A DNA stretch of 64,000 nt from Alphaproteobacteria bacterium (GTDB lineage: Bacteria; Pseudomonadota; Alphaproteobacteria; Rs-D84), in assembly GCA_015062495.1 (NCBI GenBank), contig SUUN01000002.1, positions 223,210 through 287,209 on the forward strand. Reading direction: 5' to 3'. Both the position numbers and the translations under genes were made by a program. The first letter of the stretch is position 1. Each line of letters opens with the position of its first letter. Shown piece after piece: positions 42,854 to 44,687 of the stretch. Below the pieces are notes generated by a model. That model was given only the letters and a program-made list of their open reading frames with translations, was not told where the DNA came from and ran no database searches.

Positions 42854-42880
42854 AAAAAACCGGCAATCGCCGGTTTTTTT
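42854..42880. terminator. Bidirectional terminator
   Basis: AAAAAACCGGC-AATC-GCCGGTTTTTTT hairpin between convergent genes. Confidence 0.85.
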
Positions 42881-43418
42881 AGTTTGTATAATAACAATCG
42901 CCCGAATATTCACCACTGCCACTGTCATCAGAAAACGTGTTGCCCGATGGGATAAAGCATTCGGTAACACTGGTTGCGCCCGGTCCAGTGGTTGTGCCAT
43001 ATACCCCGCCTGACGATGGGCAACGATAACACCCGGCAAAGTAATCCCCGTATTGTTCTGTATATGTGTATGTTGGTGTGCCGTAATATCCTGTGTCGCA
43101 TAGCAGTGTCCCAGTTGCAATTAGATTATCCCCGCCATAAACACCACAGTTACACGAATATGTACTTTCGCCACAATCCAGACTGATTTGTCGTGTAAAT
43201 GATGTTTGGTATGTACCGGCTGATAACGCAGGTTGATATACGTATCCATCGGGTGTTGTTGCTGTACCACTACAAAAACTGCATATGTTATCACAGGTGC
43301 TGTCGGGTGTTTGTTGGTTCTTGCATGTGCTCAGGTAACAGGCCGCCGGATTTAGTGTAATCGCAAACGCATTTCCGGTCACCATTATCGCCGTTGTTAA
43401 AAATAAAATTTTTTTCAT
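42879..43418 (-). CDS. Small Cys-rich secreted protein, unknown
   Basis: 179 residues, signal peptide MKKILFLTTAIMVTGNAFA. Mature part has about 14 cysteines, with Tyr/Gly-rich repeats ending GCYRCPSSGGVYGTTTGPGATSVTECFIPSG and GEYSGDCYYTN, suggesting small disulfide-knotted EGF-like modules. The short modules recall the C-terminal part of the 742-residue protein at 35325. Family unknown. GGGAGATAG precedes the start; a candidate structured RNA and its terminator lie directly upstream on the same strand. Confidence 0.68.
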   Translation of the reverse strand: MKKILFLTTAIMVTGNAFAITLNPAACYLSTCKNQQTPDSTCDNICSFCSGTATTPDGYVYQPALSAGTYQTSFTRQISLDCGESTYSCNCGVYGGDNLIATGTLLCDTGYYGTPTYTYTEQYGDYFAGCYRCPSSGGVYGTTTGPGATSVTECFIPSGNTFSDDSGSGEYSGDCYYTN

Positions 43419-43438
43419 TTTCTATCTCCCTTTGTTTT

Positions 43439-43680
43439 GAAAAAACAAAACCGTCAAATTTGACGGTCGGGAAGTTAGAAAAATCATAATTTGGAATGAC
43501 CTTGTGGATTTCGTGCGTATGCACTGTTTTATAGCCACAACTTCCCGACCAATTCGGTCGGGATACAGAAAAAGTTGGCGTAATAAACGCCTTCTAATAT
43601 TCTGATCGGATAACAGCGCACTTCTGCACCGCCAAATTATGGGATTTTCTAAGTCCCGAACCCAACTTCCACTTGGATTC
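43439..43680 (-). ncRNA. Candidate structured RNA, ~240 nt
   Basis: Bounded by a promoter (43687-43715) and an intrinsic terminator (CCGTCAAATTTGACGG then TTTTGTTTTTT, ending 43439). Ends pair in a ~25-bp interrupted helix: minus-strand segments around 43667-43632 and 43495-43468 match over GTxCGGGA, TTAGAAAA and CATAATTTGG. Inside lie hairpins CAGAA...GGCGT-TTATT-ACGCC...TTCTG, CCCGACC-GAATT-GGTCGGG and GTGG...GTGC-ATAC-GCAC...CCAC. An open frame from 43682 exists, but its ATG is 4 bases from the -10 and lacks a ribosome site. It does not look like RNase P RNA, SRP RNA or tmRNA; 6S RNA cannot be excluded. Confidence 0.6.
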
Positions 43681-43686
43681 ATATGT

Positions 43687-43715
43687 ATTATATGCCACCG
43701 CAATCAAAAACACAA
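43687..43715 (-). promoter_or_regulatory. Promoter of candidate RNA
   Basis: TTGTGT at 43710-43715, 17-base spacer, perfect TATAAT at 43687-43692. Confidence 0.65.
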
Positions 43716-43740
43716 TTGCTTATATAAATAAAATTTAGTG

Positions 43741-43766
43741 GCGGCGTGCGACAAATGTCGCACACC
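43741..43766. other. Perfect hairpin upstream of RNA promoter
   Basis: GTGCGACA-AA-TGTCGCAC within 43741-43766, 8-bp perfect stem, no T tract; between the gpsA terminator and the candidate RNA promoter. Could be an operator. Confidence 0.4.
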
Positions 43767-43800
43767 ATAGTGCCATTACTTACCACTTACACTAACCACT

Positions 43801-43828
43801 AAAAAATCCCGCATGTGCGGGATTTTTT
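43801..43828 (-). terminator. Terminator after gpsA
   Basis: AAAAAATCCCGC-ATGT-GCGGGATTTTTT, overlapping the gpsA stop. Confidence 0.85.
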
Positions 43829-44687
43829 ATATATTTAATTTCTTTTGCATTTCGGTTAACACAGGAACGTCTATTCCTAAATCTTTGGCACGGGCAATCA
43901 GTCCGCCCAACGCGAATATCCCTTCAACTGTGCCTTGTGGTGGGTTGCCGTTGGCAATTGCCATGCCGCCCGCGAAATTCCGGCTGGTTGCGCTGGTCGC
44001 CGACAGGAACAAATCCCCAATCCCGCACAATCCCAAAAATGATCGCATCTGGCCACCCATTGCAATGCCTATTGCCATAACTTCGTTCCATGTGCGTGTG
44101 AATATCAGTGCACGTTCGTTTTCTGCGCACTTGACACTGTTATATCCACAAATCAATGCCACTGCATTTTTGCCAACGCCGCACACCTGTGTGCCGATAA
44201 TGTCGGAACTTGTTTCCAGATACAGTTTGTTTAGTGCGCCCTGCCCTGCGATAATTGCTTTGTCCGTTCCGGCCAGTGTTGACCCGGTTGGAACCCCTTG
44301 TGCAACTTCGGCGGCGAACTGCGGGCCCGACAAAACGCCAAAATCAACACATTCTGGAATTTCAGTTGCCAAAATTTCAGACATAAACTGGCCTGTGGTG
44401 TTTTCTGCCCCTTTGGTACAAATAATTATCGGTTGGCCGTTATATTCATTACGCGCTTTACGCATTGTTTCCCGGAAAAAAGCCCCCGGCGTCACCACCA
44501 ACCACGTGTCCATATCATGCATATCGGCCATATTCGCGGTCATACGAATGTTTTTTGGCATTACTACGCCATCAAAATCCTTGTGCAGGCCGTCATAAGA
44601 CCACAACACAACATCTGCCCCGCCCTGTGCGGACACGATTGCCAACGCAGTGCCCCATGCGCCCGCGCCAATTACACCAACTTTCAT
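43827..44687 (-). CDS. gpsA: Glycerol-3-phosphate dehydrogenase [NAD(P)+]
   Basis: 286 residues, short against ~320-340. N-terminal Rossmann VGVIGAGAWGTALA, VTPGAFFRETMR, CTKGAENTTGQ, SGPQFAAEVAQGVPTGSTLA, the C-terminal GVGKNAVALICG (catalytic Lys), GGQMRSFLGLCGIGDLFLSATSATSRNFAGG, and TVEGIFALGG. The missing residues are at the C-terminal end. Makes sn-glycerol-3-phosphate for phospholipids; plsY in this window uses acyl phosphate to acylate it. The start overlaps the TPR gene stop as ATGA. Confidence 0.92.
   Translation of the reverse strand: MKVGVIGAGAWGTALAIVSAQGGADVVLWSYDGLHKDFDGVVMPKNIRMTANMADMHDMDTWLVVTPGAFFRETMRKARNEYNGQPIIICTKGAENTTGQFMSEILATEIPECVDFGVLSGPQFAAEVAQGVPTGSTLAGTDKAIIAGQGALNKLYLETSSDIIGTQVCGVGKNAVALICGYNSVKCAENERALIFTRTWNEVMAIGIAMGGQMRSFLGLCGIGDLFLSATSATSRNFAGGMAIANGNPPQGTVEGIFALGGLIARAKDLGIDVPVLTEMQKKLNI

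Follow-up and report, generated by a model that had tools for sequence, protein, structure and literature searches.

A multi-copy leader RNA with an sRNA-Xcc1-like core precedes secreted-protein genes in Rs-D84 gut bacteria and may act as a copy-specific transcription attenuator

The window analysed here, a stretch of 64,000 nucleotides from a Candidatus Enterousia-type genome of 0.9 Mb, carries on its minus strand a structured RNA of about 241 nt (43440..43680, start at about 43680 and end at about 43440). A preliminary description made from the sequence had proposed a structured RNA of about 240 nt with its own promoter and terminator at this place, and the length and both signals held up. 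The promoter (43687..43715, minus strand) consists of the −35 element TTGTGT (43715..43710), a 17-nt spacer and the −10 element TATAAT (43692..43687). The −10 is perfect, as had been described, but the −35, which had been called good, is only moderate on its own (three of six matches), and for this reason a simple consensus scan did not list the promoter. The true evidence for the −35 is its conservation in the other copies of the RNA: TTG is present at this position in 59 of 85 homologous copies versus 2.4% at random positions. Similarly, 82 of 85 homologous copies have a −10 ahead of the RNA start (6–7 nt upstream in 72), compared to 34.5% at random positions. The RNA ends with the intrinsic terminator ACCGTCAAATTTGACGGT and a T-run (43440..43467, minus strand). 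Its minimum free energy (MFE) fold has −89.2 kcal/mol versus −57.0 ± 4.9 for shuffled sequences (z = −6.5), and contains the interrupted closing helix and the inner hairpins that had been noted previously. The plus strand folds almost as well because the helices are symmetric; a plus-strand reading was nevertheless rejected since promoter and terminator are in place only on the minus strand. Promoter, terminator and signal-peptide calls in this study were rule-based.

The downstream gene (42879..43418, minus strand; RBS GGGAG) starts 22 nt past the terminator T-run and encodes a 179-amino acid Cys-rich protein with a signal peptide, for which a Pfam search returned no match. On the other side, a hairpin (GTGCGACAAATGTCGCAC) and a bidirectional terminator (43800..43829) are located between gpsA and the RNA promoter and give rise to weak look-alikes of Trp and Thr leaders. 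Weak matches to Trp, Thr and Leu leaders at 43724..43860 were discarded as terminator look-alikes outside the RNA.

The RNA was thought to fit no standard class, and no Rfam family matched at its own threshold or meaningfully at permissive thresholds. 6S RNA, tmRNA, RNase P and other standard RNAs were rejected as neither Rfam nor ARAGORN produced a match. For 6S RNA, which had also been argued against before, RF00013 had no match in the window or the genome, and a control search with this model did find 6S in E. coli, Caulobacter and others. A protein-coding reading was likewise rejected, since any sense frame is open in only 24 of 85 copies and the lengths are spread over all three residues modulo 3. 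Hence, neither a strong match to a known family nor a conserved protein frame was found for the window copy. Its earlier portrayal as an undescribed element is correct in that no Rfam model matches it, but the RNA is not an isolated element: it is a multi-copy 5′ leader with a core homologous to sRNA-Xcc1. The multi-copy nature, the leader position and the nature of the closing helix all go beyond the preliminary description.

A blastn search with a 252-nt stretch against related genomes located nine places in the window's genome and up to fourteen in others, and 29 full-length copies could be aligned from the promoter to the terminator and on to an RBS. A covariance model (R1), of which the window copy is by construction a part, scored the whole leader at 206.8 bits. 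In the window's genome, R1 found 23 places at E ≤ 0.001, a count that leaves out weak antisense echoes and includes uncertain marginal places. Within the genus, 147 of 156 genomes had matches to R1, as did 182 of 201 sampled across the order; weaker matches were present in 28 of 385 genomes of a class sample, three of which belong to the same genus. Among named records, the motif occurs in Candidatus Enterousia and other gut alphaproteobacterial MAGs. Candidatus Enterousia falls in GTDB order Rs-D84, and it and its relatives are abundant gut bacteria with reduced genomes of less than 1 Mb and a presumed dependence on partner cells (PMC12306168). At an identity of only 60–70%, copies still retain the promoter, the fold, the copy-specific pairing and the position close to a gene. 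In one genome (G032), two copies (L031 and L048) are nearly identical in their 3′ half and different in their 5′ half, which suggests recombination between copies. Many matches in another family of the order (f4; L184, L191, L194, L196, L203 and L207 in genomes G048 and G047) consist of an approximately 80-nt core only; a single genome can hold as many as 28 places, and the terminator is mostly missing. A viral origin of the window copies was considered and dropped: a search of viral contigs produced no exact match to the motif.

The individual parts of the RNA are given here from its 5′ end, with all coordinates referring to the minus strand. Hairpin P1 (GAATCC..GGA..GGGTTC, 43658..43680) is base-paired in the MFE fold and shows double changes in all 8 pairs over 94 copies, with 70% of cells paired in a region where the alignment is imprecise. 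Hairpin P2 (GGGA-CTTAGAAAA-TCCC, 43641..43657) has 98.4% of cells paired and double changes in all 4 pairs. The loop of P2 contains segment a1 (TTAGAAAA, 43645..43652), which is complementary to a segment a′ near the 3′ end as judged by permutation z and pair covariation (helix 3), such that a1:a′ forms a pseudoknot with the core. Segment b1 (CATAATTTGG, 43632..43641) is complementary to b′ by permutation z. It is followed by hairpin P3 (CGGTGCA..TGCGCTG, 43614..43631; 96.9% of cells paired, double changes in all 6 pairs) and by a hairpin, GGCG TTTATTA CGCC (43577..43591), that differs in sequence and length between copies. Strand 1 (CCCGACC, 43556..43562) is present in 81 of 94 family copies and 30 of 33 distant copies and pairs with strand 2 (92.1% of cells paired). 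Strand 2 (GGTCGGGAAG, 43541..43550), for which covariation indicates either strand 1 or strand 3 as partner, is the start of the sRNA-Xcc1-like core of about 85 nt that runs to strand 3 (43465..43550). Within the core, the stem TGTGG..CCACA (43503..43539) with its asymmetric loop TATAAAACA/AAAT has 96% of cells paired and double changes in all pairs. The loop and 3′ arm of a second hairpin provide b′ (CCAAATTATG, 43485..43494), the partner of b1, and a′ (TTTTTCTAA, 43475..43483), the partner of a1, is single-stranded in the core. The last nucleotides (ACC) of strand 3 (CTTCCCGACC, 43465..43474) double as the base of the terminator stem, and both helices are conserved. Numerous loop bases are invariant, for instance TATACAACA and AAA.

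Covariation over the 94 copies (587 double-change cells versus 147 in shuffles) supports each helix, first tested on 29 copies, with the reservation that counts from alignment A3 lean towards the model structure because A3 was made with that model; alignment A1 was made without structure. The pairings of strand 1 with strand 2 and of strand 2 with strand 3 are mutually exclusive, yet both are conserved. The closing helix described previously as about 25 bp long and interrupted is present in the MFE fold, but it is made up of two duplexes, a1:a′ and b1:b′, and is not a fixed stem. The four segments were taken at fixed columns of the alignment and their pairing was compared with that of permuted partners; these pairs are absent from the covariance model. 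The covariation that had been proposed as a check for this helix was observed copy by copy over 85 family copies with z = 18.5 for a1:a′ and z = 36 for b1:b′, values that overstate independence because the copies are related (grouping was applied only for a2, below). The own partner of b1 was in the top 5% for 96% of the copies. In distant Alphaproteobacteria the values were 10.9 and 15.1, and in another family of the order 10.3 and 12.3, for a1:a′ and b1:b′, respectively. The copy-specific pairing also holds within the window's genome alone, except for two weak copies and one pair that shares b1. Since the pairing is kept while the sequence changes, each copy is largely self-addressed. The a1b1:a′b′ duplex represents one of two states that exclude each other.

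The Rfam family that comes closest to the core is sRNA-Xcc1 (RF02221, gathering score 53 bits). The window copy itself had no match and no copy in its genome reached 53 bits, but seven places in that genome matched below the gathering score (E = 2.9e-8 to 0.015, best 49.5 bits). A distant R1 match (L160) passed it with 56.2 bits, and also shows P1, P2 and the a1:a′ match. On account of L160 and the seven sub-threshold matches, the core of the window RNA, as judged by sequence comparison, is a divergent relative of sRNA-Xcc1. The order of helices is identical in the R1 and cmscan alignments, and the two RNAs have in common the closing helix, a stem with an AAUACAA-type asymmetric loop, a second hairpin with b′ in its loop, the single-stranded a′ and the closing strand. 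Unlike sRNA-Xcc1, the window RNA has an extra strand (strand 1) and a terminator that overlaps the core. The Rfam model covers only the 87-nt core without the upstream part that contains a1 and b1. In Xanthomonas, sRNA-Xcc1 is located upstream of symE (PMC12444791) and was mapped as an 88-nt RNA (PMC2996969).

Across the phylum, 39 of 398 genomes contained sRNA-Xcc1 above the gathering score. At 30 such loci, upstream sequences matched a′ (z = 9.2) and b′ (z = 4.6), and the RBS region downstream matched a′ (z = 2.5) and b′ (z = 8.6); the upstream partners are a hairpin and the segment following it. Several loci precede BRO-, Rha- or KilA-N-like genes of the phage antirepressor type, as read from N-termini only. 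The Pseudomonadota loci L220–L249 look like c4-type antisense systems, often before genes of the phage-antirepressor type. Unannotated sRNA-Xcc1-like cores were also seen in temperate phages (Haemophilus phage Aaphi23, 16605..16686; Acinetobacter phage 4316, 11719..11783), and one locus (L229, 2890..2958) has a sub-threshold match to c4-2 (RF02944, 34.8 bits) about 1.3 kb from an sRNA-Xcc1 copy. A blastn search of plasmids with the RF02221 consensus found nothing. The literature searched, which lacked Chen 2011, the main sRNA-Xcc1 paper, contained no link of this RNA to the c4 mechanism.

Most genes behind the leader are for secreted or surface proteins. At all 24 places examined in the window's genome, the next ORF is on the same strand, mostly 23–35 nt past the RNA, and has an RBS. 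By a crude home-made rule, 20 of these 24 genes encode a signal peptide versus 15 of 52 background genes (long ORFs of the window; p = 1e-5). The remaining genes include glycosyltransferases and an HTH protein. Autotransporter-like and outer-membrane proteins are among those encoded behind related loci, and distant genomes add DNA methyltransferases, glycosyltransferases and lipoproteins. Two copies (L017 and L146) are positioned before adenine DNA methyltransferases that look EcoRI-type, an exception to the secreted-protein pattern. The leader RNA probably turns each gene behind it on or off.

A terminator is present in 86 of 94 family copies and 26 of 33 distant copies versus 1 of 30 bona fide sRNA-Xcc1 loci. 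Its stem begins inside strand 3 in 82 of 89 family copies and 23 of 25 distant copies, and without the shared nucleotides it weakens from −9.9 to −3.1 kcal/mol. The full terminator stem and a conserved core helix thus exclude each other. In MFE predictions, strand 2 was paired with strand 1 in 68 of 75 copies, and the pairings 1:2 and a1b1:a′b′ leave the terminator whole. These observations lead us to lean towards a model in which the RNA is a 5′ leader of the c4/sRNA-Xcc1 type and works in cis by attenuating transcription of the downstream secreted-protein gene. In the default state predicted from folding, a1, b1 and strand 1 would pair with a′, b′ and strand 2, leaving strand 3 free such that the full terminator forms and the gene, presumably transcribed from the leader promoter, is off. 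If processing, a bound molecule or another copy of the RNA pairing with a1b1 were to hold the 5′ domain off, the core could close through strands 2 and 3 and capture the base of the terminator stem; transcription would then pass and the gene would be on. Pseudoknot-free folding of the full-length RNA makes the 2:3 state less stable by an average of 14 kcal/mol, and hence a trigger or a processing step must be assumed. Because b1 and b′ differ between most copies, each gene would have a largely private switch. Attenuation is not the function of every member, since only 5 of 29 copies of the related family f4 have a terminator.

The principal competitor is a true c4-type antisense RNA, in which a1b1 would hold the core inactive until it is cut out, after which a′ (and b′) would pair with the start region of the RNA's own gene and block its translation. 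In phage P1 the c4 core is processed out of the transcript by RNase P. The order annotated in the P1 record (AF234172) is a1, b1, C4 RNA, a2, b2, icd, and the layout of a1, b1, core with b′ and a′, and gene is the same here, with a′ and b′ complementary to upstream a1 and b1 on the same transcript in both the window's family and the distant sets. The matches of a′ and b′ at the 30 sRNA-Xcc1 loci and the mapping of sRNA-Xcc1 as an 88-nt RNA agree with such a mechanism. Start regions of the window's family also match a′ above permuted controls (z = 4.9), for example at L005, L009 and L088, but the signal drops to z = 2.3 once copies with equal a′ are grouped, and that for b2 is z = 2.9 family-wide and −0.3 in the window's genome. 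The weak a2 candidate in the window, TAGAAAA over the start codon (43418..43424, minus strand), forms 7 bp with a′; this duplex of −5.4 kcal/mol is no better than those of a′ with start regions of other copies and compares with −15.6 kcal/mol for a1b1. Moreover, the conserved overlap with the terminator would be unnecessary for an antisense RNA. Weak RBS pairing together with strong terminator overlap favours the attenuator, and we regard the antisense mechanism as rather unlikely, although the faint a2 signal at the start codon might leave some room for translational action.

The leader position, the terminator overlap and the many invariant loop bases would also suit a riboswitch in which the core and the P1–P3 domain bind a metabolite or ion and thereby shift the terminator switch. 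However, b1 and b′ lie at the heart of the switch and their sequences are free to change provided that they still pair, a behaviour that fits RNA–RNA addressing better than an aptamer, and the downstream genes for surface proteins and glycosyltransferases point to no single pathway; a ligand-binding RNA therefore seems improbable. The promoter, the strong terminator and the MFE fold that leaves it intact could equally belong to independent small RNA genes that act in trans on other targets and precede surface-protein genes by chance. This seems about as improbable, because in most of the 24 copies an RBS and a start codon follow on the same strand at a constant, short distance, and the approximately 20–28 nt between terminator and start codon cannot accommodate another promoter. 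A dispersed mobile or MITE-like repeat with no regulatory function would also be expected to leave many diverged copies in a genome, but the covariation and the features retained at such low identity make this explanation highly implausible compared with the attenuator.

The leaders are candidates for a system by which Candidatus Enterousia and its relatives regulate their surface proteins, and if the attenuator set is real, a cell could switch its surface proteins separately. For sRNA-Xcc1, whose mechanism was unexplained in the literature searched, a testable one emerges: pairing of the c4 type, both to an upstream partner and to the RBS of the following gene. As a more tentative proposal that we consider possible, sRNA-Xcc1 would be a c4-type class, and Rs-D84 gut symbionts would have turned a phage-type antisense RNA into approximately two dozen largely self-addressed attenuators of surface genes. 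If the switch model is true, many self-addressed gene switches have arisen by multiplication and remodelling of a phage immunity device.

Compared with known systems, the window RNA shares with c4 of phages P1 and P7 (RF01695) the succession of promoter, a1, b1, core (b′ loop, then a′) and gene on one transcript; the c4-a1b1 motif was described by Weinberg 2010 (PMC2864571). A TGCGGTATTTTTGTG hairpin upstream of the core is common to P1 and sRNA-Xcc1 loci. The c4 models RF01695 and RF02944 had no match in the window, and an R1 search of P1 c4 returned nothing meaningful. Unlike P1 c4, the relatives of the window RNA have weak or absent a2 and b2, overlap with a terminator and precede chromosomal surface-protein genes. 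The Group 1 C4-like sRNAs of Acinetobacter baumannii likewise represent many phage-type antisense copies with variable specificity loops on one chromosome; the parts of that report available to us give no account of upstream partners specific to each copy, of a switch by terminator overlap or of any connection with secreted-protein genes (PMC5320573). With transcription attenuators the window RNA has in common the overlap of antiterminator and terminator and a third competing strand; it differs from the known ones in that no leader peptide, known aptamer or Rfam leader was found and in that its competing strand is addressed copy by copy.
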